From positions 1-64,000 of the forward strand of contig JACNLC010000056.1 in assembly GCA_014381725.1 (NCBI GenBank): a DNA stretch of 64,000 bases, read 5' to 3'. The DNA is from Fidelibacterota bacterium (GTDB lineage: Bacteria > Fidelibacterota > Marinisomatia > SCGC-AAA003-L08 > JACNLC01). The notes under the pieces are model-generated. The model worked only from the letters and a program-made list of their open reading frames with translations. It was not told where the DNA came from and did no database searches. Every line of letters starts with the position of its first letter. The stretch's first letter is position 1. Shown in pieces: positions 2,600 to 48,958 of this stretch. A program made the position numbers and the translations under genes.

Positions 2600-4888
2600 T
2601 TAATCCTTTATCAACTTATTTTTCAACAATTCTCCTAAAGACGCTAATAGTGTCAATGTTCCTATTGATGTAGATAGCATTGCAAAAACCATTAATCCGC
2701 CTATATATTGGATTGGTAAAAATACAGAAAGTATCAGTGCTCCGAATCCCATATTTGATGCCGCATCTAAAATAATTGGATATCCCACATCATCAATAAC
2801 TTCTCGACTTAGTTTATCTTTGGGAATTCCATTCTTTGATAAATTGCGATATTGGGAGATATAATGAATAGCAAAATCCACCCCAACACCAATAATAATT
2901 GATGATAAAATTGCTGTGATATGCGACATCTCCACACCGAAAATCCCCATAAAACCAAAGTTCATTAAAACGGCTGAAGTAAGCGGAATAACAGCCAATA
3001 ATCCCCAAATAAATCTTTTGAAAAAATACGCTGCAATTAAAGCAATGGCAAAAATAGAAATTGATATGCTAATCATTGAAGAATCCACAATCAATTTTAC
3101 GAGGTCGCGGAAAACAACCATCATTCCAGTTATGCTCAATTCTGTGTTCGGATTTACATTTTCTTTTGCAAAAGTTTGGATATTATTTACGACCTCTGTA
3201 ACTTCAGTTGAAGTGACCATTTTCATTAAACCGGTAACTAACCCAACTTCGTAATTTTCATCTACAAGTGATGAAAAGTCATCTGTATCTCCAGAAAGCG
3301 AATACATTGTAAATAGATTGTTCACTTTTCCGCGGGAGTTGGGGATTCTTTCAAATTCCGGCCGGTCTTCCTCAACAATTCGGTGCATTTGCTTGATAAC
3401 CTCCGCAATTGACATTGTGGTTGTTACACCTTTTTGCTTGGCAATATAATTTTGGATCGTTTCCATGTCTCTCAAAACAGATGGGTCTTTTATGTCAGCT
3501 TCTATTCTGATTTGAATATCAGATGAACCGGTCATTTGCTCATCCAAAAATGTCATGCTATCACGAATTTCAGTCCCCTTTTTGAAAAAGGTTGTTACAT
3601 TTGCCTCTACCCTAACCAAAAATATACCGTAAATTGAAATACCAACAATTAACATTCCTGCACTTAAAATATACTTTGGATGACGCACAACAATAATTCC
3701 AAATTTATCAATCAATTTTTCAAAGATACTTGCGTGTGTAATTGCTTTTGAGCTGTTATCCCATTTTTTAAGATTTATAAGCGATGGCAACATAATTGAG
3801 GACAATAGCCACGCCCAAGCCACGCCAAATCCGATTGTAATTCCGTAACCTGCCATTTGTTCTATAGGTGCAAGCAACATAGATAAAAATGCTACAATTG
3901 TGGTTATACTTGTTAAAAATATTGGCATTAATAATGAATCCATTGTGGAAGTTATCGCGGATCTTTTTTCTTTAGATTTTCTAAATTCTCTAAAGAATTT
4001 TGCTAGTACATGAACTCCATCAGAATTTGCTATAGTAAGCAAAATAATTGGCATTGATGTATTCATCATCGTGAACAAAAATTTATCCGAATCTGTTAAT
4101 TTGTAAACCCAACCCATAAACCCTAACATTGCAACAAGAGATAAAATTATAACGGACAAAACCATCCCAACGGCATAAATACTTCGTAAATTAATCAGAA
4201 GTATCAAAATCATAATGAGCATTCCGATTTGCATGAGCATTTTTACATCTTTTTGAATGAGTGCCGGAATTACCCCCGACAAATAGGCGTGTCCACCGTA
4301 ATGCTTGTCGTAGTTTTGAAGTATGGAATCACCTGTTGCAATTATTTTTGGTGTTAATTTATCAAGAGCAACATCATTAATTGGGCGAATCATTATGCTG
4401 AGAAAATCTTTGTATTTCGACAATAATCTAATTTCTATGGATGGTGTTTTGTTTAAGTAATTTTCTATATCATTTACTTGTTCATTTGATAAATGCTGTT
4501 TTGGCATCATATCATCTACAACCATTTCATCAAATTCAGCGTCATAGACCATTTTGCTAATAGATGCAATGCTCATAACTTCATCAACTTCAGGTATATT
4601 TTCGAGAGCTTTAGTTACTTCCCAGCATTTTGCAAGAGTTTCAGGATTTAATGCAGATTTGCCTTCAATCCCCATTGCAAGATAAATCATTTCCGTATTG
4701 CCAAATTCTTCACGGACAGCATCCCAAGTTTTGCGAGTTTCTAGATCTTGAGGTAGCAATTTCATCATATCGTCGTCAACGGTAAACCATTTTGCCCCAA
4801 AACCCATTATAAGCGTTAGAATAATGCTGATAAAAACAGTTTTCTTTGAATGATTTAGCGATTTGTTGATAATAAATTGTTTAATCAT
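2600..4888 (-). CDS. MMPL/RND-family exporter
   Basis: A 762-residue inner-membrane pump of the MMPL branch of the RND superfamily. It has the duplicated layout: one membrane helix, a large periplasmic loop, five or six helices, then the same again. The repeats hold sterol-sensing-like helices such as GVGVDFAIHYISQYR in the second half and NSDGVHVLAKFFREF in the first. I place the start at 4888 because GGAG lies six bases upstream. A longer frame begins at 4900. The chosen start overlaps the TetR stop by 8 bases, which couples repressor and pump. MMPL pumps beside LolA-like proteins usually move lipids or hydrophobic compounds; the substrate here is unknown. Confidence 0.88.
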   Translation of the reverse strand: MIKQFIINKSLNHSKKTVFISIILTLIMGFGAKWFTVDDDMMKLLPQDLETRKTWDAVREEFGNTEMIYLAMGIEGKSALNPETLAKCWEVTKALENIPEVDEVMSIASISKMVYDAEFDEMVVDDMMPKQHLSNEQVNDIENYLNKTPSIEIRLLSKYKDFLSIMIRPINDVALDKLTPKIIATGDSILQNYDKHYGGHAYLSGVIPALIQKDVKMLMQIGMLIMILILLINLRSIYAVGMVLSVIILSLVAMLGFMGWVYKLTDSDKFLFTMMNTSMPIILLTIANSDGVHVLAKFFREFRKSKEKRSAITSTMDSLLMPIFLTSITTIVAFLSMLLAPIEQMAGYGITIGFGVAWAWLLSSIMLPSLINLKKWDNSSKAITHASIFEKLIDKFGIIVVRHPKYILSAGMLIVGISIYGIFLVRVEANVTTFFKKGTEIRDSMTFLDEQMTGSSDIQIRIEADIKDPSVLRDMETIQNYIAKQKGVTTTMSIAEVIKQMHRIVEEDRPEFERIPNSRGKVNNLFTMYSLSGDTDDFSSLVDENYEVGLVTGLMKMVTSTEVTEVVNNIQTFAKENVNPNTELSITGMMVVFRDLVKLIVDSSMISISISIFAIALIAAYFFKRFIWGLLAVIPLTSAVLMNFGFMGIFGVEMSHITAILSSIIIGVGVDFAIHYISQYRNLSKNGIPKDKLSREVIDDVGYPIILDAASNMGFGALILSVFLPIQYIGGLMVFAMLSTSIGTLTLLASLGELLKNKLIKD

Positions 4889-36612: not shown

Positions 36613-38280
36613 TTATTTATTCTCATCATTAACAGATTGATTTTCCCATGTGATTTCTGCGTGGCAAGGAATCATTTCTTTCCCAAAATATGGATTTTTC
36701 ACTTTTCCTGATTTTTGCAACCAATAACCACCATCTGGGGCAGGGCAAAACCGTTCTTCAAATTCGAGATTGATTGATTTCTCTCGCACGATTTGTCGAA
36801 TAACTTCCGATATTTCACGGAATGAATTACGCAATTCGGAGATATTTTGATTCGGTCGCATCGTTGGCTCCATAATTGGTTCAACGCCCTTAACACCCAT
36901 CGTTAATCTGTGGATTCCCATCGTTGACATATAAGCAGAATCGAAATCATCAATAGCCAAATATTCTTGTAAAGAAAAATAGTGATGGAGAACTTCTGCT
37001 AGAAGTTTATCGGATATTGTAACTACTACCTTTTCATCGTCATTCATATCTCCACTCATCATTGATGGTTTTGCTTCGAGTTGCATTGCAGAATCAATTT
37101 TAAATGTTCCGTGAGAAACTACATTTTCACCTTCAGATAATCCATCTAAAATAATATATTCGTCTTGAATTCGGTGCCCAAGCGTTACTTCGCGAAGTTC
37201 AAAAACAGGCTCTTCAGTATTGGGTTTCATTACATATACAATTGCTCTTTCGCCTGTTTTCATTACCGCTGATGATGGAACAATTAGTGGATTTGCTGAT
37301 ATGTCATCATCATTCGATATTACTTCTCCTTTTGCATTGAGTCTAACCTGAACTTGAGCCGAAACAAACATCTCAGGTTTTAGTTGATTATTGCTGTTGT
37401 CCACATTAACTCTCACGGATACAGTTCTAGTTTTACTGTTCATCGTAGGATGTATAAATGAAACAAGTCCTTCAAATAAGTCTCCCGGATAAGCGTCAAC
37501 TAAAAAAGTAACATTTTGGTTGATTTGAATTAGTGAAATATCCGATTCGTGAACATCAATATTTAACCATAAATTTCTTAAATCAGAAACAGTTGCGATT
37601 GGTGAACCTGTTTTCACATAATCACCTTCAGCAATATTGAGCTCAACAACTGTTCCAGAAATTGGAGCTGTGATAGATATTGTTTGTAGAATTTTTCCGT
37701 TGCTCTTTATTTCGGATATTTGTTTACTTGAAATTCCAAGTAAACGGAGTTTTTCAGAAGTAATTGATTCCATCGCTGTTCCTACAGATAACAAATATTC
37801 TTGTTGAGCAGAAATAAGTTCAGGAGAATATATTTCCATTAATTTGTCATTGTTTGAAATTTCAACTCCAACAAAATCAATAAATAGTTTATCGATTCTT
37901 CCGTCAGTCCAAGCGGTGATACTATTTGTTTTAGTTTCGTCGAAACCTAATTTTCCGGAAAAACGAATATGTTTTTCAGCTACTTCACGAGATACCAGAG
38001 TTGTTCCGATTTCTGCTAATTTCATTGCAGATTTCGACAATTTCAGTTCTACTTCTGATACTGAATCATCCGAATCTAACGGGATCAAGTCCATAAAACA
38101 AATTGGGCATTGACCAAATTCCGGCAACTGAATTTGTGGATGCATTGAGCAGGTCCAAACCGTCGCTTTTTCTTCGGATTGATGTGTGTTGGCAGGATGA
38201 CCGGTTGAGCTTCCAATCCAATATCCAATACCAAGTGCAATTACAATCAAAATAATTATTATTTTATAATATTTCTTCAT
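36613..38280 (-). CDS. cusB: CusB-type periplasmic adaptor with N-terminal HMBD and C-terminal DUF3347-like domain
   Basis: A 555-residue membrane-fusion protein. It has an N-terminal anchor (IIIILIVIALGIGYWIG), then an HMBD module VWTCSMHPQIQLPEFGQCPICFMDLIP (residues 41-68). The adaptor core is WTDGRIDKLFIDFVGVEISN, ISAPISGTVVELNIAEGDYV, IATVSDLRNLWLNIDVHES. A C-terminal metal-related domain of about 130 residues ends in FCPAPDGGYWLQKSGKVKNP and GKEMIPCHAEI. It bridges CusA and the outer-membrane factor and hands metal to the pump. The extra end domains are common in FCB-group CusB proteins. Confidence 0.92.
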   Translation of the reverse strand: MKKYYKIIIILIVIALGIGYWIGSSTGHPANTHQSEEKATVWTCSMHPQIQLPEFGQCPICFMDLIPLDSDDSVSEVELKLSKSAMKLAEIGTTLVSREVAEKHIRFSGKLGFDETKTNSITAWTDGRIDKLFIDFVGVEISNNDKLMEIYSPELISAQQEYLLSVGTAMESITSEKLRLLGISSKQISEIKSNGKILQTISITAPISGTVVELNIAEGDYVKTGSPIATVSDLRNLWLNIDVHESDISLIQINQNVTFLVDAYPGDLFEGLVSFIHPTMNSKTRTVSVRVNVDNSNNQLKPEMFVSAQVQVRLNAKGEVISNDDDISANPLIVPSSAVMKTGERAIVYVMKPNTEEPVFELREVTLGHRIQDEYIILDGLSEGENVVSHGTFKIDSAMQLEAKPSMMSGDMNDDEKVVVTISDKLLAEVLHHYFSLQEYLAIDDFDSAYMSTMGIHRLTMGVKGVEPIMEPTMRPNQNISELRNSFREISEVIRQIVREKSINLEFEERFCPAPDGGYWLQKSGKVKNPYFGKEMIPCHAEITWENQSVNDENK

Positions 38281-38288
38281 AATACCTC

Positions 38289-39476
38289 CTAAAGTGTTTT
38301 CCCAATTAATTCATAAAACCGGGCTTTTGTTGTTTGAAAAATTTTGTGTAGAGATGCGTTTTCTAATTTGAGATTTAGCAAAATTAGAACGGCATCCATA
38401 AATCTGTCAAAATCAATATCATTTGACAAATAAGCAGTTTCAGAAACAGTAAACGATTGTTCAGCTTTTGGAATAAGTTCATTTTGATATAATAGAGTTT
38501 TTCTCTGCAAATTTTCCATTTCAAACAATAGTCGTTCTGATTGAGATTTTAATAATTCTTCTGTGTCAAAAACCAGATATTCCGTAGATGTTAATTCTGA
38601 TTTTGCAGATTGTTTCTTTGCCATATTTTTGCCAAACCATAAAGGGAGAGTTAACCCAAATCGAATATCGATTGGATTGTCTTCGACAGCACCATCCAAC
38701 ATAATATAATCGGCTCCTATTTTGAAATCCGGTAAGTAAGATAAATTTGCCAGATGCACTTTGGTTTTTGCAATATCTACCGATATTGACACCGTCTGCA
38801 ACTCGGGATTCTTTGCAAAATCCTTAAATTCAGGGATAGTCAATTCAATTTCATCAAAAACGATATCTCCGGGATTTTGTCCACCCAATAAAGATTTCAT
38901 TTCACGATATAGGATTATTTCTTCATTGACAATTGTAGCTAGATTATCTTCTTGTTTTAGAACTTCGAGTTGAATTTGTATAAGATTTGCGTGATTTACA
39001 GAAGCCGTTATATATTGTGTTGTTAGCACAGATTCCAAACGCTTGAGTATCACCAATAGATTTTCTGTGATTGAAGTTTCTGTCTGTAAATATCGAAGCT
39101 TTTCATAAACAGTGATGACTTCCCGTTGTATTTCCAATTGTGTTTTTTGTAAACTTACTTTTTCTTTTTCTGCACGCAATAACCCAATCTTCTTTTTTGA
39201 TGCCAACTTCCCGAATCCGGGAATTGATTGACTAATTCCAATTTTCCATTCTTGCGGACCGGTTTTAGTTTCAATGGGTGTAAGAAAATATCCTGCGGAC
39301 AGCGATGGGTCTGGCAGAGAACTCAATACTTTCGCTTCTGACTTTTGTTTGCTTACCAATTCCATTTTACTTTGTATTTTTAGGTTATTTTCAAACGCAA
39401 TTGATAATAATTTTTCTAAATTTGTTTCGTTCCCAATAAGTAGAGAACAATATATTAAAATTATAAAATACTTCAT
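38289..39476 (-). CDS. TolC-family outer-membrane factor of the Cus system
   Basis: A 395-residue outer-membrane efflux protein. I start it at 39476, where GAGGGAAAT precedes the ATG and a signal peptide (KYFIILIYCSLLIGNE) follows. The open frame from 39521 would add 15 residues with no export signal. Long amphipathic helices repeat twice, as in TolC/CusC: SLPDPSLSAGYFLTPIETKTG, ISQSIPGFGKLASKKKIG, and later LPDFKIGADYIM, IDIRFGLTLPLWFGKN. It is transcribed just before the adaptor and pump and forms the exit channel. Confidence 0.88.
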   Translation of the reverse strand: MKYFIILIYCSLLIGNETNLEKLLSIAFENNLKIQSKMELVSKQKSEAKVLSSLPDPSLSAGYFLTPIETKTGPQEWKIGISQSIPGFGKLASKKKIGLLRAEKEKVSLQKTQLEIQREVITVYEKLRYLQTETSITENLLVILKRLESVLTTQYITASVNHANLIQIQLEVLKQEDNLATIVNEEIILYREMKSLLGGQNPGDIVFDEIELTIPEFKDFAKNPELQTVSISVDIAKTKVHLANLSYLPDFKIGADYIMLDGAVEDNPIDIRFGLTLPLWFGKNMAKKQSAKSELTSTEYLVFDTEELLKSQSERLLFEMENLQRKTLLYQNELIPKAEQSFTVSETAYLSNDIDFDRFMDAVLILLNLKLENASLHKIFQTTKARFYELIGKTL

Positions 39477-39553
39477 ATTTCCCTCGTGGTTTATATACAA
39501 AAAACCTAATTCCGGATACAAAACCCCCGGACTAAAAACAGGAAATTAGAAGT

Positions 39554-39910
39554 CTAAATTAGAAGAGGATTACTTGTATTTGGAGGGATTTTATATTTAT
39601 GCCGGCTATAATCTCTTGGCATAACTCGTGAAATTAAAATTGGCACAAAATTACAATCCAGATTAATAATTTCAGTTTGTTTTTCAATCTTATTAATTTG
39701 AGCTACAGCTGGATGTTGGACTCCGTCGAAATCCGTTTTGTTGCATTTGAATTTCATATTGCATTGGCATCCTTTTTTGTCCATCATGCAACAAGATTTC
39801 ATCCCTTTTGTTTTAGAGAATGGTTTGCAACATTTCTCGAAGCTGACATGAGCTCCGAGATTTAGAGCCAACGAAAATGATACTATTGTTAATAATAATC
39901 TCACACCCAA
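39554..39910 (-). CDS. Small exported Cys/Met-rich protein at the head of the Cus cluster
   Basis: A 118-residue protein with a signal peptide (LLLTIVSFSLALNLGAH), then a dense Cys/Met region EKCCKPFSKTKGMKSCCMMD, KKGCQCNMKFKC, which has eight Cys within about 30 residues. The last 50 residues are plain and may be disordered. It is the first gene on the strand before the OMF, adaptor and pump. A periplasmic copper-binding or copper-sensing role is inferred from composition and place. I recognise no family. Confidence 0.7.
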   Translation of the reverse strand: MGVRLLLTIVSFSLALNLGAHVSFEKCCKPFSKTKGMKSCCMMDKKGCQCNMKFKCNKTDFDGVQHPAVAQINKIEKQTEIINLDCNFVPILISRVMPRDYSRHKYKIPPNTSNPLLI

Positions 39911-39947
39911 ATTTAGAGCTACATCATTACTTTAGCAAAACATTATT

Positions 39948-39964
39948 TGTAACAAGTTATTACA
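39948..39964. promoter_or_regulatory. Palindrome upstream of the Cus cluster
   Basis: TGTAACAAGTTATTACA is a 17-bp palindrome with one mismatched pair, 38 bases upstream of the first Cus-cluster gene and 93 bases from the divergent GGDEF gene. Position suits an operator for the metal regulon. It is only loosely like the TGTTAC-type motifs elsewhere in the window. Confidence 0.45.
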
Positions 39965-40057
39965 GACAGATAAGAGAAATACAACAATATTTCATAAACA
40001 TGTAGCATTTGTAAATATGTATATATAAATTTCCACTATAGATAATCAATTATATTT

Positions 40058-41152
40058 ATGTGTTCAATTAAAAAAGACAAACTCAAAACTAAAACAAAAT
40101 CTGAGCTTATTCAAGAAATTGAAACCCTACTAACTAGGATTTCTGAGCTAGAGAGTTCAACTAGGGATGAGATTAAAACCATTGAACAATCAAAACAAAA
40201 AATTGAATGGCTACACAAAGCTGCACGAAATATTGCAACTTGTGAAACTGAAGTAGAAGTCTATCGCACTACAGTATTGGAAGCAAGAGAAATTCTAAAT
40301 TACACCGATTGCACATTAGATATTATAGAAGACAATAAATTTGTAGTTAAAGCAAAAATTGCTCAAACTTTCTCTAAAGAAGAATGGACAAGGGAAATGG
40401 ATATTGACGAAGGTATTGCCGGGAAAACTCACAAAACTGGTAAAACAATTTTGATTACTGATTTATCAAAAGAAGCAAATGCAAAGCCATCAACCAAAAA
40501 TATTCAATCAGCAATAAGTGCGCCTATCGGTAGCCTTGGGATATTTCAAGTAATCTCAAATAAAATTAATGCTTTTTCAGAAGAAGATGTTCAAATGCTA
40601 GAATTACTGCTTGGTCATACAGCTGAAAAGTTGAACCGTATTAAATTACAAAAAGAAATTCGTAATCAAGCAATACACGATCCACTAACAGGAGTTTATA
40701 ATAGACATTATTTACACAAAATACTGAAACAAGAAGAAAAAAGATCTAAAAGATATAGCCGTTCAGTTGCGTTTATTATGATTGATCTCAATGGGTTGAA
40801 AAAAGTTAATGATAAATACGGACATAAAATTGGTGATGATCTGATTCACACTGTTGCTGATTTATTACTAAAAGAAGCAAGGCAAACTGATGTTGTATTC
40901 CGCTATGGTGGAGATGAATTTTTAATTGTTCTTCCTGAAACAGGCGAAGAGGTGGACATTATAAAACAGAGAATTAATATTCGTGTTGAACAATGGAATA
41001 AACTAAATCCTAACGCTTTGTATAGAGTTTCTTTTGCTTTAGGTAGTGCTTATTGGAGTCCTAAAAAAACGGATGCCACAATTGAAGAAATAATAGCTTT
41101 AGCAGATAAAAAAATGTACGAAAATAAACGAAATTTGAGAGAAATTAGTTAA
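40058..41152 (+). CDS. GAF-GGDEF diguanylate cyclase
   Basis: A 364-residue soluble protein. Residues 1-65 are a Lys/Glu-rich coiled coil. A GAF-like sensor follows, about 65-200 (MDIDEGIAGKTHKTGKTILITD, SAISAPIGSLGIFQVISN). The GGDEF domain starts at DPLTGVYNRHYLHKIL and has the active loop RYGGDEFLIVLPE with intact catalytic residues. It should make cyclic di-GMP from GTP. There is no inhibitory RxxD five residues before GGDEF. No Shine-Dalgarno sequence is visible. Its end overlaps the convergent TPR gene by 8 bases. Confidence 0.92.
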   Translation: MCSIKKDKLKTKTKSELIQEIETLLTRISELESSTRDEIKTIEQSKQKIEWLHKAARNIATCETEVEVYRTTVLEAREILNYTDCTLDIIEDNKFVVKAKIAQTFSKEEWTREMDIDEGIAGKTHKTGKTILITDLSKEANAKPSTKNIQSAISAPIGSLGIFQVISNKINAFSEEDVQMLELLLGHTAEKLNRIKLQKEIRNQAIHDPLTGVYNRHYLHKILKQEEKRSKRYSRSVAFIMIDLNGLKKVNDKYGHKIGDDLIHTVADLLLKEARQTDVVFRYGGDEFLIVLPETGEEVDIIKQRINIRVEQWNKLNPNALYRVSFALGSAYWSPKKTDATIEEIIALADKKMYENKRNLREIS

Positions 41153-43406
41153 ACTCAATGTAGTATTGAAGCGAATCGTATAAATCTTGATTTAACATAT
41201 ATAGTATATTCATTTCTTTTTTTGCAGATCGTTTTTTATTTAATTCTAAATAAGTTAGACCTAAAAGATAATGGGTTTCAGCATCATCAGAATAAATTTT
41301 CAATGCTTTCTTTAACGACTTTGCTGCGTCTTTATAATCTTTCAAATTGTAATGACATTTTCCAATAAAATATAAAATTCGATAATCATTTGGATTTAAC
41401 TCCAAAGATTTATTGAAGTTTTCTAGAGCGACTTTGATTTTTCCAAGTTTTAAATAGGATTGCCCAATTAAGAAATAAACAACAGAATCATTGCTGAAAT
41501 TTTCAACATATTGTTCAAATTTAGTTATTGCTTGATTATGCAATCCAAGTTCTTTAAAAGCTACTCCCATTTGATATTGAATTTTTGAATTATCTGATGA
41601 AAGGATTAGTGCATCTTGAAATGCAATCAGGGTTTGCATATATTTACCTGAATTACCAAAAGCTAACGCCAACTGATAATACATGTTTAGAGTTGGTGTA
41701 CCGCAACTTATTGCATGTAGCAAATGTTCTTGAGCTTCTTCAAAATCACCCAATTCATTTGAAATTAATCCTAATCTATAGTGGGCTTGTGTATTTTCAT
41801 CATCAAAAAGAAGAACCTTTTTATAAGCAGAACTTGCATCCTCCATCTCGTCAAGACTCCAGTATGATTCAGCAATTTGAGAACAATAATACTCACTTTC
41901 CATATCTAACAGATTGAGTCGATTATATGTATCTATTGCTTCTGGAAATCTAGTTTCTTTCATAAATACTTCGCCAAGAATTTTTAGCACAGAAATACTA
42001 TCCGGTTCTAAAATAATAAATTCCCTTAGAGGATCCAAAGCTAAATAAAATTGCTCAGTTTTGTATAACAACATTCCCAATCGATAATTGATATTTTTAG
42101 TGTTAGTAGAATATTCACGAGCTTTTTTGTAGGACTCAATTGCTTGATCGATGTTTAAAATGTTCTCGTAAATTTCACCCAAATAATAATGTGCATCTCC
42201 ATTCTCGGGATTGATTGAAACTGTACGGTTAAATGCTTCTAATGCTTGTAGTGTTTTATTTGTATTTAGGTAAGCAATGCCCAGCTGATGAAATGTTTGC
42301 TCATTGTCTGGGTTCAAAAGTAATGCTTGAGTTAAGTAAGAAATCGCAGAACTATATTCTTCTAACAAATTATAAGTATTTCCGATTTCAAAAAGTGCCT
42401 TGTAATTGTAAGAATCATCCGTGAGAACATTTTCAAATGCAGTAAGTGCATCATTATAATTCCCCATAGAAGCAAGAGATTTTCCAGTACCATACATTGA
42501 TTCCAAGAAATTAGGATTTAACCAATAAGATTGTTGATAATTTATCAGTGCATTGTAATAATCATTAGCTTCAAAACACATATCAGCTAAAAAGAAAAAT
42601 CCTCTGTAATCTGCAGGGTTATTTTTTATATATTTTTGCATATAATTTTTTGCTGATTCTAAACTATCGGAATTCCACTGTATTAAAGATAAATAAAAAT
42701 CAGGTGCAATTTTGCTGTGATTATAATTTTGATCCAAAACAAATGCATTTTTTAAACTTCCAAAATAAGATGCATCGCTTAGATAAAATTTGTCACGAAA
42801 ATAATCTATGTCTAAACTTGGTGCATCCATTAGTAACGCATTTGAAAAATTATCTACAGCTTCTGTAAGTAAATCACTTTCAATATAAGAAAATCCAATA
42901 TCCATAAGTTCTAGAGCATGGTCATACGGTAAATATATTTCAGGATATTCAGCTAACTCTTCCTCTTCTTTTTGTTCATCTACTTGTATTTCAGAGAGTT
43001 TATTAGTTATGTGTTGCAACTGCTGAACATCTCCAGATATTGAGTACAATTCCTGCAAGTTTTTATATGGCTGGACTAACCTTTTTTTACTTTCATCAAT
43101 GTGTTTGTTATAAATTAGAATTGAGCGATTAAAAAACTGTTCTGCTAGTTTTGTATTATCTGAGTTAAGGTGCGTAAGACCTATGTTGTTCAATGTTATT
43201 GCAACATCTAAGTGATTTTTACCCAATACAGATTCTTGCAAGTATAAAATCTGTTCATAAACAGAAATTGCTTCAACAAACTGCCCAGAATTTTTGTAAT
43301 ATTCTGCTTGTTTCTTCATTTCAGATACTACGCTTCCGTCTTGACCTACACCAAATGACATCAAGCTTAGGATGAGAATAGTACAAAATTTTGTTATCTT
43401 ACGCAT
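41145..43406 (-). CDS. Exported TPR-repeat protein
   Basis: A 753-residue exported protein. A signal peptide (ITKFCTILILSLMSFGVGQ) is followed by an N-terminal block (residues 30-110) typical of TPR_12 repeats, then about 15 canonical 34-residue TPR units from residue 160 to the end, for example AFENVLTDDSYNYKALFEIGNTYNLLEEY and ALENFNKSLELNPNDYRILYF. It is a periplasmic or outer-membrane-linked scaffold; the partner is unknown. Its promoter region lies beyond the sRNA terminator, so it may be expressed separately or by read-through from the sRNA. Confidence 0.88.
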   Translation of the reverse strand: MRKITKFCTILILSLMSFGVGQDGSVVSEMKKQAEYYKNSGQFVEAISVYEQILYLQESVLGKNHLDVAITLNNIGLTHLNSDNTKLAEQFFNRSILIYNKHIDESKKRLVQPYKNLQELYSISGDVQQLQHITNKLSEIQVDEQKEEEELAEYPEIYLPYDHALELMDIGFSYIESDLLTEAVDNFSNALLMDAPSLDIDYFRDKFYLSDASYFGSLKNAFVLDQNYNHSKIAPDFYLSLIQWNSDSLESAKNYMQKYIKNNPADYRGFFFLADMCFEANDYYNALINYQQSYWLNPNFLESMYGTGKSLASMGNYNDALTAFENVLTDDSYNYKALFEIGNTYNLLEEYSSAISYLTQALLLNPDNEQTFHQLGIAYLNTNKTLQALEAFNRTVSINPENGDAHYYLGEIYENILNIDQAIESYKKAREYSTNTKNINYRLGMLLYKTEQFYLALDPLREFIILEPDSISVLKILGEVFMKETRFPEAIDTYNRLNLLDMESEYYCSQIAESYWSLDEMEDASSAYKKVLLFDDENTQAHYRLGLISNELGDFEEAQEHLLHAISCGTPTLNMYYQLALAFGNSGKYMQTLIAFQDALILSSDNSKIQYQMGVAFKELGLHNQAITKFEQYVENFSNDSVVYFLIGQSYLKLGKIKVALENFNKSLELNPNDYRILYFIGKCHYNLKDYKDAAKSLKKALKIYSDDAETHYLLGLTYLELNKKRSAKKEMNILYMLNQDLYDSLQYYIEFN

Positions 43407-43499: not shown

Positions 43500-43660
43500 T
43501 ATAAAAAAAGAGCCCCAAAACTGGAGCTCTTTTAATTTTCAGGTTTATTTGAAGGAGGAAACCTGAAGTGTACCAAATTCACCTTGAAGGAGGAGGAGAT
43601 AAGGGAAGGGGTTGGCACAAACCCTTTATAAATCTATCTATTTCAAAAACCTTTTCCTGC
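43500..43660 (-). ncRNA. Candidate small RNA with repeated anti-Shine-Dalgarno motifs
   Basis: The 346-base interval 43407-43752 has no ORF but has all parts of a small RNA gene on the minus strand: activator box (43714-43734), TATTATTATA (43670-43661), then about 155 bases ending in a strong terminator. The transcript would hold a 7-bp hairpin AAGGGTT/AACCCCTT and an open C-rich stretch UCCUCCUCCUUCAAGG. It also has a perfect 7-bp hairpin CAGGUUU/AAACCUG with UCCUCCUUC in its loop. UCCUCCUUCAA thus occurs twice, once unpaired and once in a loop, and is complementary to AAGGAGGA. This predicts base-pairing with ribosome-binding sites. The start site is estimated. Confidence 0.72.
43504..43533 (-). 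terminator. Intrinsic terminator of the candidate sRNA
   Basis: On the minus strand AAAAGAGC, a TCC/GGG inner stem and GCTCTTTT form a hairpin around AGTTTT, followed by TTT in a run of seven T. The opposite side is weaker (TTTTAATTTT), so the main direction is minus. Confidence 0.9.
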
Positions 43661-43752: not shown

Positions 43753-44253
43753 TCAAACTAATGCAGATTGAAGATAATTGTTGTGTTTAATATTTGTTTG
43801 TTGATAGACAATCTGTGGTACAACATAAAAAATATCAGGCATTGATAAGCGAAAAAAACACCACTTTTTTCGCGACGGGAATTTATTCTTTATTGATTTA
43901 TCTAGCAGATATTGACAAGTTTCTACAACTCTATAAATTTCTTGAGACAAACCATTAGAATTCACTTTTATAACATTTCCATCAATATCAATATTTTGTA
44001 AGTTATTGTTTGTCATTAATATAATGATAGTATTTGGGCAAGATGATTTTATTCTACGGATTGCTGAGATGCACTCATATCCGCAGAAGTCGTAATTTAA
44101 CACCAATAAATTTGCATCGTGTTGGATAACAGTCTTCAATACTTTTTCAGGTTTGATAATTTCGCTAATTATTGAAACACCATCAAATGGTAATAACATT
44201 GCTGACAATTTTCTACTAATACATATAGATTCTTCGGCGATGACTACTTTCAT
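43753..44253 (-). CDS. Receiver-domain protein lacking the phospho-acceptor (pseudo-receiver)
   Basis: A 166-residue protein with a receiver-like N-terminal domain: KVVIAEESICISRKLSAML, then ANLLVLNYDFCGYECISAI, then NTIIILMTNN. The residue that should be the phosphorylated Asp (LLDYDMP in true receivers) is Asn (LNYD), and the acid pocket is EE. The switch-Lys region is also degenerate. A C-terminal tail of about 45 residues (KNKFPSRKKWCFFRLSM) has no recognised domain. Its start overlaps the previous pseudo-receiver by one base. It probably acts by binding a partner rather than by phosphorylation. Confidence 0.75.
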   Translation of the reverse strand: MKVVIAEESICISRKLSAMLLPFDGVSIISEIIKPEKVLKTVIQHDANLLVLNYDFCGYECISAIRRIKSSCPNTIIILMTNNNLQNIDIDGNVIKVNSNGLSQEIYRVVETCQYLLDKSIKNKFPSRKKWCFFRLSMPDIFYVVPQIVYQQTNIKHNNYLQSALV

Positions 44254-44636
44254 TATATTTCCTTTTTAGCTTTATCTTTGTAAAATAATTCTTTACAAAC
44301 ATCTATAACTTTGTCAAATTCTGTATATTTGTCAAAAAAGTGAATTATCCCCAACTGCTTACATTCTTCTTTCATTTGTTGATAAGGATAACTTGAAAGA
44401 ATGATTACCCGAGTGTCAGGAGTTATTTTGTTAATTAAATTCATTTTATCAATACATTCTTCAACGGACATTTTAATACCGATAACAATAATATCCGGTT
44501 TTGTTTTGAGAATTGTTTCACAATGCTTTCTAGTAGAATTCACAAGCTGGGTTACTTCTATTTTCCCAATTGAGAGTAGCATTTCTGCTAATCTTTCGCG
44601 TATAACTTTTGATTCTTCTGAAATTATTACATTCAT
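44253..44636 (-). CDS. Receiver-domain protein with Gly at the phospho-acceptor (pseudo-receiver)
   Basis: A 127-residue single receiver domain: NVIISEESKVIRERLAEML, KPDIIVIGIKMSVEECIDKM, DTRVIILSSYPYQQMKEEC, HFFDKYTEFDKVI. The phospho-acceptor position has Gly (VIGIKMS in place of LLDIxMP) although the switch Ser and Lys are kept. I prefer the ATG at 44636, which matches the start of the next gene (MKVVIAEES); one at 44648 is also possible. It lies behind the GacA-like box at 44797-44817 and in one operon with the second pseudo-receiver. Confidence 0.75.
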   Translation of the reverse strand: MNVIISEESKVIRERLAEMLLSIGKIEVTQLVNSTRKHCETILKTKPDIIVIGIKMSVEECIDKMNLINKITPDTRVIILSSYPYQQMKEECKQLGIIHFFDKYTEFDKVIDVCKELFYKDKAKKEI

Positions 44637-44662
44637 TATTCGTTCCATTACTAAATAATTTT

Positions 44663-44743: not shown

Positions 44744-44817
44744 GCTAATAATAATTGATTTTCAAGAAGTACAAAATAAGTTGGAAACGGAATATTTTGT
44801 AGGGGTTTGTCTTACAA
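44744..44817 (-). promoter_or_regulatory. GacA-like box and promoter of the pseudo-receiver operon
   Basis: TTGTAGGG (44797-44804) and TCTTACAA (44810-44817) flank GTTTG. On the minus strand 43 bases follow the box before TATTATTA at 44753, and CTTATTTT begins 17 bases after the box, exactly as at the sRNA promoter. A start near 44740 gives a leader of about 100 bases. It lies 71 bases past the stop of the GacA-like regulator gene. Confidence 0.75.
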
Positions 44818-44888: not shown

Positions 44889-45524
44889 TTACTCAACTAA
44901 AGAATTTGATATAGCGTAGTAAGTCATTTCAGCATTAGTTTTAATGTTCATTTTCTCCAAAATCCGAGATCTATAAGTGCTGATTGTTTTAACACTGAGA
45001 AATAGTTGCGATGCAATTTCACTAATTGTTTTTCCTGATGCAATCAAACACAAGACTTCATATTCTCTATCAGATAGCAATTCGTGGGGTGCTTTGTTGG
45101 AATCTTGACCAATATCTTCTGCTAATATTTCTGCTAAATGTGGAGAAATAAATTTTCCACCATCATTTACTCTACGGATTGCCTTAACAAGCAAATCGGA
45201 AGCACCATCTTTTGTTACATAACCCGATGCTCCTGCTTTTAGGGTTCGTTTCGCATATTGATCTTCTGAGTGCATACTTAGCATCAATACAGGAATATTT
45301 TTATCAAAACTCTTTATTTCCTTTAAGACATCCAAGCCGTTTGGTCCGCCCGGCATTGAGATATCTAACAGAATTAGATCATATTTGTTTGTCCATACTT
45401 CTTTTAAAGCTTCTGAACCATTATTGGCTTCACCGGTAACTTGCATTCCCATAGTTTCATCAATTATTCTCTTTAGACCTTCGCGGACAATTGCGTGGTC
45501 ATCAACTAATAGTATTTTTATCAT
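44889..45524 (-). CDS. NarL/FixJ-family response regulator, GacA/UvrY-like
   Basis: A 211-residue response regulator. The receiver has LLVDDHAIVREGLKRII, phospho-acceptor in DLILLDISMPGGPNG near residue 57, and the switch Lys in GYVTKDGASD. The C-terminal LuxR-type helix-turn-helix is LSDREYEVLCLIASGKTISE, then QLFLSVKTISTYRSRILEKM, then AEMTYYAISNSLV. The last segment is especially like UvrY/GacA (VELTHLAIRHGL). The start at 45524 overlaps the kinase stop as ATGA; the open frame to 45611 is read-through into the kinase gene. The two matching boxes in the next intergenic regions are its likely targets. Confidence 0.93.
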   Translation of the reverse strand: MIKILLVDDHAIVREGLKRIIDETMGMQVTGEANNGSEALKEVWTNKYDLILLDISMPGGPNGLDVLKEIKSFDKNIPVLMLSMHSEDQYAKRTLKAGASGYVTKDGASDLLVKAIRRVNDGGKFISPHLAEILAEDIGQDSNKAPHELLSDREYEVLCLIASGKTISEIASQLFLSVKTISTYRSRILEKMNIKTNAEMTYYAISNSLVE

Positions 45525-48500
45525 TTTAGTTCCTTTTCGTTGTATGGAATTTCTACATGAATAAATGTACCAATATCCATTTTCCCGGAGATTGTAACAG
45601 TTCCACCCCAAATATTTGCTCTTTCTCTCATGCCAAGTAAACCTAATGATTTATGGTTGAAAATTATTTCTTCATCAATTCCGAGCCCGTTATCACTTAT
45701 ATCCAAAATTAATTTGTTAGTTTCCTTTGTGAGTTTAATTGACACTTCAGTTGCCTCAGAATGACGAGCTACATTTGTTAATGATTCCTGTAACATTCTA
45801 AACAGAGCAGTAGATCGTTTGGTGTCAATCCAGCTATCATCATCTGGTAGATGTAATTTACAATGGATTTCTGTTCGTTGAACATATTCTTTGATATGCC
45901 ATTCGATTGCCGCTATTAGTCCAAGGTCATCTAAAATACTTGGTCGAAGTTCTGAACTTATTCTCCTCACATCATTTATTGTTTGGTTTACAAGTTTTTC
46001 TAGAGAATCAAATTTGTTATAAACTGGAAGATTGTGGTTATCTGGTACTTTGGATTTAAGCCAAGCGAGGTCCATTTTCATTCCAGTTAAATTTTGTCCT
46101 AATTCATCGTGAATTTCTCGAGCAATATTTGTTCGTTCTTCTTCTTGAAGTGTTTGAAGTCGTGAAGAAAGTTTACGGAGTGCTTCCTCTGCACTCTTTC
46201 GTTTTGTTATATTATCAAAAAACCCAAATCCCCCATTTTCTTGACCTGATTTACTGTAAATTATTGCACTATTCAGTATTGTATAAATTTCTTCACCGTC
46301 TTTCTTTTCCAACACAACATCAAATCTTCGATGGCTAGCAATTGGATTTTTTTCAATTTCCAAATTCATTAAATTTCTTGATTTGTCTGTTACAAATTCT
46401 GTCAATCTTCTACCAATAATTTCTTCTCTGTTGAAATCAATCAAATCACAAAATGCGTTATTTACTTCACTAATTCTCTGATTAGAATCTACAAGATAAA
46501 AGCCTTGTGTTGTTAAATCAATGACTGTCCGGTATTTTTCTTCACTTAATCGAAGAGATTTTTCAATTCGTTTCAGATTTGAAATGTCCACAAAACTTTC
46601 AATTAAGCACTTTCGTCCTTTTATGGTTGCGGTAGTAACTGTTTTCAGTATTGGGATTTTCTTCCCATCAATATTCAGCAAAATCCTCTCAGAATTATCT
46701 ATTGCCTGACCCAAGTTAGATATAGGGCATTTTCCTCTTTCAGCTGGACAAATATATTCATGGCATACCGACCCAACGATTTTATCTTTTGGAGCACCAA
46801 TTAACTTTACTGCAGCAGAATTAATATCAACAACCGTATGATCTTTTTCATCAATTACAAAAATCCCTGCTTGAGCAGTATCAAAAATAGTTTGTAAGTG
46901 TTTTTCACTTTCACGAATAGCTTCATCATCTTTAATTTTTTGTGTAATGTCATTCCCTGTTGATACAAAATGTGTAATTTCACCATTTGCGTTTTTTAAT
47001 GGGGATATTGTTTTACCTTCATAATATAATTTGCCTGTTTTTGTTTTGTTGATCAAAATATTTTTGTATGTTTTACCGGAGAGAATAATATCCCACATTT
47101 CTTTGTAAAATTCTTGATTATGTTTTCCGGATTTTAGAATTCTAGTATTTTTACCTATAACTTCGTCGAATGAATAGCCGGTTACTTTTTCAAATGCTGG
47201 ATTAACATAAGTTATTAATCCTGATTTATCCGTAATTACAACATGAGAATTAGATTGTTGAGTAACTCTTGATAATTTTCGAAGTTCATCTTCTGTTTGT
47301 TGCCGTTCAAAAATTTCATTTTTTAACTCTATGGTTCGTTCTTCTACGAGATCTTCTAATCGAATTCGATACATTTCTAGTTCTTGTTCGTTTCTCTTCC
47401 TTTGTGTAATATCTCGACCGACACCTAATCTTCCGATAATTTTACCAAAAGAATCTGTTAAAGTACTTATTTTTAGTTCAAGATAAATAACAGTACCATC
47501 TTTGCATATAACAGCGGTTTCATAGGGCGGAACATGTTTTCCAGAAATTGCCTTTTTGAAATTTTCAACTGTTGTTTTAAGGTACTCAGGCACTATTAAA
47601 CCTGTGAAAGAGCGCCCAATAACTTCTTCGGATGAATATCCGGTTAGTTCTTCAGATTTAGGATTTGCGTAAGTAAATTTTCCTTCAACATCTATAGTGT
47701 AGATAATATCATCAATTGTTTCAACAAGAGTCTTATACTTTTGTTCACTATAATGTAATTCTGAAATCTTGTCTTCTACAAGTTCTTCTAAATGATTTCT
47801 GTGAAGTTCGAGATCCTTTTCAGTTTTTTCTCTTTGTGTAATATCTTTGATAATTCCGATAAAACCTGTTGGATTCCCTTCATTATCTAGAATAATTGAT
47901 GCACTAGATTCTCCCAAGAAAGTAGTTCCGTCCTTTCTTAGAAAAGTATATCTTACATCTATGATTTTACCGCTTTCAATTGCATTTAAAGCATCTTGAT
48001 TAATTTTTTCTCGATCTTCGGGAACAACATAAGAAAATGTTGTTTTCCCTTTGACATCATCTTTAGTATCAAGATTAAATAATTTTTGAGTTTGACGATT
48101 AACATACTTTATTTTTGCATCTAAATCGCTAACGACAATTGCGTCCGGAGACAGCTCAAACAAAGTACGGTACAATTCTTCTCTATCGAGTAGTTTTTTT
48201 TCAGCTAGCTTTTTGGAGGTTATATCTTGAGTTGTTCCGATGATTGCAATCGGAGTGCTATCTTTATCGTAAGTTACATTAGCTCTGCATCTCAGAAATC
48301 GCACCTCTTGCGAATCCTGTTTAATAAATCTACATTCATAGTCAATAGGTTCGTGATTTGCAATATTGTTATTAATTATCTGTCGGATATCATCTCTGTC
48401 TTCTGGGTGAATTATTTGAAAAAGAATATCATTCGAATACTCAAAAGTATCGGGCTTTACTCCCAATATCGCATAAGCTTCTTTAGACCAAACAACACTT

Positions 48501-48958
48501 TCAGTTTGCATATTGTACTCAAAACTACAAATATGTGTTAAATGCTGAGACTCATCAAGTAAAACTCGACTTTTTTCTAGTCTTTGTTGAGAAAGTTTTT
48601 GTTCTGTAATATTGCGAATAATTGAGATTACTTCTTTATTTTCAGTTGGAAGAAGTCGTGCTTCGAAGTATTTAGTTTCACCTGAAATTTGAAGTGAATA
48701 TTCGATCTGAGATAGTTTATTATTTCTTAATGAATCCTTAACAGCTTTCATTATTCTTGAAGATGTTGTGGATGGAAATATATCTTTTATTTTTTTATTT
48801 ATAAATTCTTCAGGTGGGAGATATAAATCTGCTATATTTCCAGCTCGGTAATCGAGAATCTTACCCTTTTTATCTAATCGAAAATATAAATCAGGTAATG
48901 CTTTGAAAATAATTTCAAGGTCAGATTGATGTTGATTATTATTGTTTTGCTTTTTCAT
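45521..48958 (-). CDS. Multi-PAS sensor histidine kinase (HisKA_3 type)
   Basis: A 1145-residue kinase with no membrane helix, so it is cytoplasmic. Seven PAS domains occur in series, starting near residues 12, 130, 262, 405, 560, 690 and 815. Several end in the usual ITQRK or ITEQK linker, and coiled segments come before PAS4 and PAS5. PAS6 contains CHEYICPAERGKCP, a Cys cluster that may bind metal or sense redox state. The kinase core is a NarX/DegS-type dimer helix, NIAREIHDELGQNLTGMKMD (phospho-His), then an ATPase with NGLGIDEEI and GLLGMRERA. It is coupled to the regulator gene by ATGA, giving a clear cognate pair. The signal is unknown. Confidence 0.93.
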   Translation of the reverse strand: MKKQNNNNQHQSDLEIIFKALPDLYFRLDKKGKILDYRAGNIADLYLPPEEFINKKIKDIFPSTTSSRIMKAVKDSLRNNKLSQIEYSLQISGETKYFEARLLPTENKEVISIIRNITEQKLSQQRLEKSRVLLDESQHLTHICSFEYNMQTESVVWSKEAYAILGVKPDTFEYSNDILFQIIHPEDRDDIRQIINNNIANHEPIDYECRFIKQDSQEVRFLRCRANVTYDKDSTPIAIIGTTQDITSKKLAEKKLLDREELYRTLFELSPDAIVVSDLDAKIKYVNRQTQKLFNLDTKDDVKGKTTFSYVVPEDREKINQDALNAIESGKIIDVRYTFLRKDGTTFLGESSASIILDNEGNPTGFIGIIKDITQREKTEKDLELHRNHLEELVEDKISELHYSEQKYKTLVETIDDIIYTIDVEGKFTYANPKSEELTGYSSEEVIGRSFTGLIVPEYLKTTVENFKKAISGKHVPPYETAVICKDGTVIYLELKISTLTDSFGKIIGRLGVGRDITQRKRNEQELEMYRIRLEDLVEERTIELKNEIFERQQTEDELRKLSRVTQQSNSHVVITDKSGLITYVNPAFEKVTGYSFDEVIGKNTRILKSGKHNQEFYKEMWDIILSGKTYKNILINKTKTGKLYYEGKTISPLKNANGEITHFVSTGNDITQKIKDDEAIRESEKHLQTIFDTAQAGIFVIDEKDHTVVDINSAAVKLIGAPKDKIVGSVCHEYICPAERGKCPISNLGQAIDNSERILLNIDGKKIPILKTVTTATIKGRKCLIESFVDISNLKRIEKSLRLSEEKYRTVIDLTTQGFYLVDSNQRISEVNNAFCDLIDFNREEIIGRRLTEFVTDKSRNLMNLEIEKNPIASHRRFDVVLEKKDGEEIYTILNSAIIYSKSGQENGGFGFFDNITKRKSAEEALRKLSSRLQTLQEEERTNIAREIHDELGQNLTGMKMDLAWLKSKVPDNHNLPVYNKFDSLEKLVNQTINDVRRISSELRPSILDDLGLIAAIEWHIKEYVQRTEIHCKLHLPDDDSWIDTKRSTALFRMLQESLTNVARHSEATEVSIKLTKETNKLILDISDNGLGIDEEIIFNHKSLGLLGMRERANIWGGTVTISGKMDIGTFIHVEIPYNEKELK

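Follow-up and report, generated by a model that had tools for sequence, protein, structure and literature searches.

In the 64-kb stretch of DNA analysed here (the window), a predicted small RNA gene on the minus strand, sRNA1, lies close to the gene for a GacA-like response regulator, and genome comparison supports it as a real, conserved and regulator-linked locus. Comparison establishes the transcribed strand, the activator box, the loop motif, the terminator, the link to the regulator and the presence of a second sRNA. We consider it likely that a GacA-like switch, through a box about 70 nt upstream, drives sRNA1 as a trans-acting RNA that represses mRNAs with strong Shine-Dalgarno (SD) sequences by direct pairing. 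A minus-strand sRNA had been proposed here in an earlier note, and its box, promoter and terminator were re-found (Table 1).

Table 1. Positions of the features discussed in the text (window coordinates unless a locus name is given).
Feature	Position	Strand	Basis or remark
sRNA1, predicted transcript of about 155 nt	43500..43655	-	start near 43655 to end of U-tract; promoter and terminator scan, folds, equivalents in relatives
Activator box TGTAAG-N7-CCTACA of sRNA1	43733-43715	-	centred at about -69; kept in four relatives
Promoter TTGATA-N16-TATTAT	43689-43662	-	promoter scan; relatives with TTGACA and TAATAT at the equivalent place
Anti-SD motif A, CTCCTCCTCCTTCAAGG, open stretch	43582..43600	-	sequence, exact motif search, unpaired probability
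Hairpin TTCAGGTTT-CCTCCTTCAAAT-AAACCTGAA, loop contains anti-SD motif B	43567-43538	-	sequence and fold; perfect 9-bp stem
Rho-independent terminator, 12 pairs, then U-tract	43533-43506	-	terminator scan, minus strand
Gene for degenerate receiver-like protein, 166 aa, between box-driven gene and sRNA1	43753..44253	-	weak homologue
Gene for small receiver-domain protein, first behind second box	44253..44648	-	Pfam Response_reg
Leader element copy	44713-44660	-	before small regulator gene
Second box TGTAAG-N7-CCTACA	44798..44816	-	upstream of small response-regulator gene
Gene for GacA-like NarL/LuxR-family response regulator, probable driver	44889..45530	-	Pfam, NCBIfam, orthologue alignment
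Gene for PAS-rich HisKA_3 histidine kinase, probable cognate kinase	45521..48958	-	Pfam, NCBIfam
Leader element copy	49172-49135	-	before histidine kinase gene
Leader element copy	L148 2405-2445	+	opposite sRNA2, before 843-codon open frame
GGAGG RNA	L146, L141, L133, L135 (position about 1500), L150 (position 1166)		box, motifs, terminator

The sRNA1 stretch is intergenic and has its own promoter and rho-independent terminator, as expected of anti-SD trans-acting sRNAs. Its activator box sits within a longer palindrome, TTGTATTGTA...TACAATACAA (43739-43709), and boxes of the form TGTAAG-N7-CCTACA occur twice in the window against 0.03 expected. TCCTCCTTCAA likewise has just two exact copies in the window, at 43594-43584 and 43559-43549 of the minus strand; if one mismatch is tolerated the count rises to 7, where 1.55 would be expected, a number that 0 of 100 shuffles reached. 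As described earlier, one copy lies in an open stretch and the other in the loop of a perfect hairpin, the stem of which is 9 bp long and not 7 bp as then stated. A 28-codon GTG frame across sRNA1 was rejected, since no equivalent would fit into the shorter RNAs of the relatives.

Folding of the minus strand gave a structure no more stable than shuffled sequences (z -0.66), and the plus strand of the same region folded more stably (z -2.65). An alternative fold competes with the anti-SD hairpin of sRNA1; on average the motif copy in the loop is unpaired with a probability of 0.49, and the open copy with one of about 0.8. What supports an RNA gene is therefore comparative evidence, not thermodynamics.

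This comparative evidence comes from four Marinimicrobia genomes of another family than the window (G008, G011, G031 and G033). In each, a box-led RNA gene with a predicted product of about 76 nt lies directly downstream of the orthologous regulator (62-63% identical) and comprises, in this order, a TGTAAG-N6-CCTACA box, a near-consensus TTGACA/TAATAT promoter, a hairpin and a terminator. The hairpin, GTTAACT-TCCTTCCTCCTTC-AGTTAAC, has a 7-bp stem and TCCTTCCTCCTTC as its loop, and is analogous to the hairpin of sRNA1. Box, CCTCCTTCA motif and element order are kept among these RNAs and most other bases have changed; a CCUCC-type motif retained in unpaired regions with the remainder diverged is a mark of the anti-SD trans-acting class. 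The terminator stem carries one compensatory change, G-C to A-U, in G031 and G033 compared with G008 and G011; over this stretch G033 does not differ from the Marinimicrobia record CAJWYZ010000032.1 (L044). A check for loss of the CCUCC loop found none in these four genomes, which keep both regulator and box. With box, promoter, CCUCC loop and terminator standing beside the orthologue in four relatives, there is good support for the earlier proposal of a minus-strand sRNA under a Gac-like regulator.

Judged from the available sequences, sRNA1 itself cannot be aligned with these RNAs past box, promoter and motif, and a nucleotide search with it in 40 relatives returned just short, mostly AT-rich chance matches. 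Rfam recovered a single tRNA only in the window and nothing above gathering in the relatives. In G001 and G004, which belong to the family of the window and possess both regulator and CsrA, neither box nor sRNA was found beside the regulator. Weak DNA matches of a relative's sRNA in G125, G127, G144 and G145 came without a strict box and were set aside.

The best NCBIfam model for the regulator is UvrY/SirA/GacA (NF007018), with 190.9 bits and hence below the cut-off of 280; the MctR and NarL models score lower, and the regulator of a relative (L033) reaches 202.3 bits with NF007018. The list of open reading frames gives the gene a longer TTG start, extending it to 45611. The kinase contains PAS repeats, HisKA_3 and HATPase_c in Pfam, and neither a receiver nor an HPt domain, so that it lacks the make-up of the GacS hybrid kinase. 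A GacA-like site, in the variant TGTARG-N6/7-CYTACA, is found at two sRNA genes in the genome of the window (G000) and at sRNA genes in four relatives. From this co-location we infer that the regulator binds the box. Probably the neighbouring PAS/HisKA_3 kinase phosphorylates the regulator, which would then turn on sRNA1 via the TGTAAG-N6/7-CCTACA box, located some 70 nt ahead of the predicted start. The 166-aa protein encoded next to sRNA1 has no Pfam match; it shows weak similarity both to the receiver domain encoded just before it and to a protein that follows this regulator in G009, and reads as a degenerate, fast-evolving receiver.

The genome of the window has only three strict boxes, one each upstream of sRNA1, the small regulator gene and a second RNA gene, sRNA2. 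Since a reversed control pattern gives two matches in this genome, the box count alone is not significant and it is the contexts that matter. sRNA2, with a predicted length of about 140 nt, lies on a different contig (C60, in the region 4500-4800), is unlike sRNA1 in sequence and consists of box, two hairpins and a strong terminator; the hairpin loops are GUUCUCCUUCUUCAA and UUUGUCCUCCUCAGAUUA, with the C-rich loop motifs CUCCUUCUUC and UCCUCCUC. sRNA1 would be one of at least two trans-acting RNAs of this genome. Across 245 genomes of the phylum, a box followed by N66-96 and TCCTC was found at six distinct loci, all within the four relatives named above (g6 genomes), and at three other loci, which appear chance-like (one is tRNA-like, as read from the matched letters); the reversed control gave five single matches. 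In G031 and G033 (both g6) the regulator gene, too, is preceded by a box, a further box-led RNA with CUCCUC is present in G011 and G031, and in G009 and G016 a box likewise separates the LuxR-type regulator gene from the small regulator gene that follows.

The genes that follow these RNAs allow for a different reading, in which the element is the 5' leader of the TPR gene (41145-43406) and its terminator a conditional attenuator. About 95 nt past the sRNA1 terminator the TPR gene follows in the same orientation, a small TPR-like lipoprotein gene follows in the relatives, and the sRNA2 terminator is also followed by a gene on the same strand. However, what lies downstream varies, from genes for a 753-aa TPR protein and a 127-aa lipoprotein to a MotA-like gene and, at sRNA2, an unrelated gene, yet box, loop and terminator keep recurring. 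Furthermore, no alternative antiterminator is evident, and the C-rich loops match the SD sequence, not the terminator. We regard a leader as unlikely and retain a separate, regulator-driven sRNA.

Gac/Rsm, the textbook path from two-component signalling to global post-transcriptional control, depends on CsrA. No match to PF02599 (CsrA) above cut-off was detected in the 98% complete genome of the window or in any of the 23 f3 genomes, and none in any g6 genome or any relative carrying the RNA. A further 14 genomes of the order have CsrA, among them G001, G004, G009 and all f4 genomes; behind the strict boxes of CsrA-containing relatives no recognisable GGA RNA was seen. Titration as by CsrB or RsmY/Z would require CsrA/RsmA and several GGA loop motifs on the transcribed strand, and the strand on which box, promoter and terminator lie has CCUCC instead. 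Since CsrA was not found in the carriers, CsrB/RsmZ-like action is unlikely, with a misfit in both motif and partner, and direct pairing becomes the likelier action. The anti-correlation between CsrA and the RNA derives from two lineages and is by itself not evidence of replacement.

Another candidate is a Csr/Rsm-type titrating RNA on the plus strand whose GGA motifs would bind CsrA: that strand holds GAAGGAGGA twice, once in a hairpin loop, and its fold is better than that of shuffled sequences. This is highly improbable in our view: it is the minus strand that has the terminator and the best-placed promoter, and the CsrA to be titrated was not found in these genomes. In the relatives, moreover, box, promoter, loop and terminator follow one another in the direction of the regulator gene, on the CCUCC strand, which confirms the strand chosen in the earlier note.

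The minus-strand RNA probably acts by pairing directly with other RNAs and not by titrating CsrA. Most likely, the two UCCUCCUUCAA copies of sRNA1 would pair with strong GAAGGAGGA-type SD sequences, in the manner of the AbcR, alpha-r14 and RoxS RNAs; UCCUCCUUCAA is complementary to UUGAAGGAGGA, which is the SD core plus flanks, and sRNA1 could in this way pair directly with AAGGAGGA. Such pairing would repress, and perhaps destabilise, the mRNAs. Anti-SD action of sRNA1 is probable. In the genome, GAAGGAGG-N3-11-ATG occurs only four times, each before an open frame, and twice in the control; being hardly above the control, the four genes (named by sequence reading as an ABC permease, a NiFe-hydrogenase-like, an OB-fold-like and an NqrB-like protein) are candidates only.

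That strong SD sites are so rare in this genome fits a variant in which the regulator-driven RNA is real and its C-rich loops act on a partner other than SD sequences, such as a protein, the ribosome or another RNA, for example a GGAGG RNA. In five g6 genomes a box leads an RNA with a GAGGGAGGG (or GAAGGAGGG) loop, an open GAGGAGGA, both GGAGG motifs, and a terminator. This RNA, behind a second box in g6, would be a natural partner for CCUCC RNAs; it is placed upstream of a conserved gene that points the other way, and one of its carriers, G006, showed no close regulator orthologue. By analogy with RosA, the RNA sponge of RoxS (PMC8216469), it is possibly an SD-mimicking sponge of the CCUCC RNAs. 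On the other hand, none of the strict boxes in the genome of the window was found to lead such a GGAGG RNA, and UCCUCCUUC complements the SD core, as in known anti-SD sRNAs. We judge a non-SD partner to be improbable and favour pairing with SD sequences.

A broader scheme, in which CsrA-less Marinimicrobia have rewired a GacA-type circuit so that sibling sRNAs replace the CsrA-titrating GGA RNAs and themselves become the repressors by covering SD sequences and, in some relatives, the same switch co-drives a GGAGG sponge as their decoy, is tentative and on balance doubtful. What the predicted drive brings together is a GacA-like regulator, a nearly identical DNA site and RNAs of opposite polarity (CCUCC versus GGA) in genomes where CsrA was not found. 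If true, such a circuit can exchange its output while its transcriptional front end stays in place. An uncultured, widespread marine phylum would also gain a defined sRNA regulon, for which the three boxes in one genome are a testable prediction.

Known systems share parts of this arrangement. GacA recognises TGTAAG-N6-CTTACA, located at -75 for rsmY (PMC4950607), and the sRNA1 box differs from it by one base and one spacer position. A GacA-like regulator, a site near -70 and few boxes are common to sRNA1 and the GacS/GacA-RsmX/Y/Z (CsrB/C) systems, and as in a Gac system all three boxes of the window's genome precede sRNA or regulator genes. The differences are CCUCC in place of GGA, CsrA not being found, and a PAS/HisKA_3 kinase instead of the GacS hybrid. 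In the motif, AbcR1/2 (alpha-r15) of alphaproteobacteria come close, with one anti-SD motif in a hairpin loop and another between stem-loops (PMC8844928), the same placement as in sRNA1. In Sinorhizobium, however, AbcR involves the regulator LsrB, whereas a GacA-like regulator adjoins sRNA1, and the phylum is another. The alpha-r14 RNAs (NfeR1) keep identical anti-SD motifs in unpaired regions while their stems diverged (PMC10746234), like the RNAs described here. Both families, ar14 and ar15, appear among sub-threshold Rfam matches, far from gathering (RF02344, 26.2 versus 58.8 bits; RF02345, 24.9 versus 40 bits).

Two-component drive and C-rich type, as suggested for sRNA1, are found in RoxS/RsaE of Firmicutes, an sRNA driven by ResDE/SrrAB whose C-rich regions block ribosome-binding sites (PMC4409812). 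sRNA1 differs in having no Rfam match to it, in a NarL/GacA-type regulator and box instead of ResD, and in the closeness of regulator gene and sRNA gene. Sibling sRNAs with two anti-SD motifs each, NmsRA and NmsRB, repress mRNAs of central metabolism in Neisseria (PMC5362039); sRNA1 and sRNA2, by comparison, lie on different contigs, are mutually unlike and are linked by the GacA-like box.

Several other elements were noted around these genes. A leader element, AATCCTTTGAGAAACCA-N2-AAA-N2-GTT, has exactly three copies genome-wide (Table 1), and pairing of sRNA1 or sRNA2 with these leaders was not convincingly better than with shuffled ones. In g6 genomes a second palindrome, AATCAG-N7-CTGATT, stands directly behind the box near the -35 region (L044 3640-3670, L124, L125 and L126) and is possibly the site of a second factor; ahead of the regulator gene it takes the form AATCGGA-N5-TCCGATT. 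Three g6 genomes (L140, L147 and L151) hold a perfectly conserved box, TGTAAGGGATATCTTACA, about 100 nt before the gene for a small protein that reads MKYPVDT(I/L)V(M/L)INNREWRVAEYRMGRGREWVYTLANE. Within the window, the stretch 36613-41152 contains efflux-type genes, which appear from their sequence to encode an outer-membrane factor and a membrane fusion protein with a heavy-metal-binding-like N-terminus, and, adjoining them, a GAF-GGDEF diguanylate cyclase gene (40058-41152).
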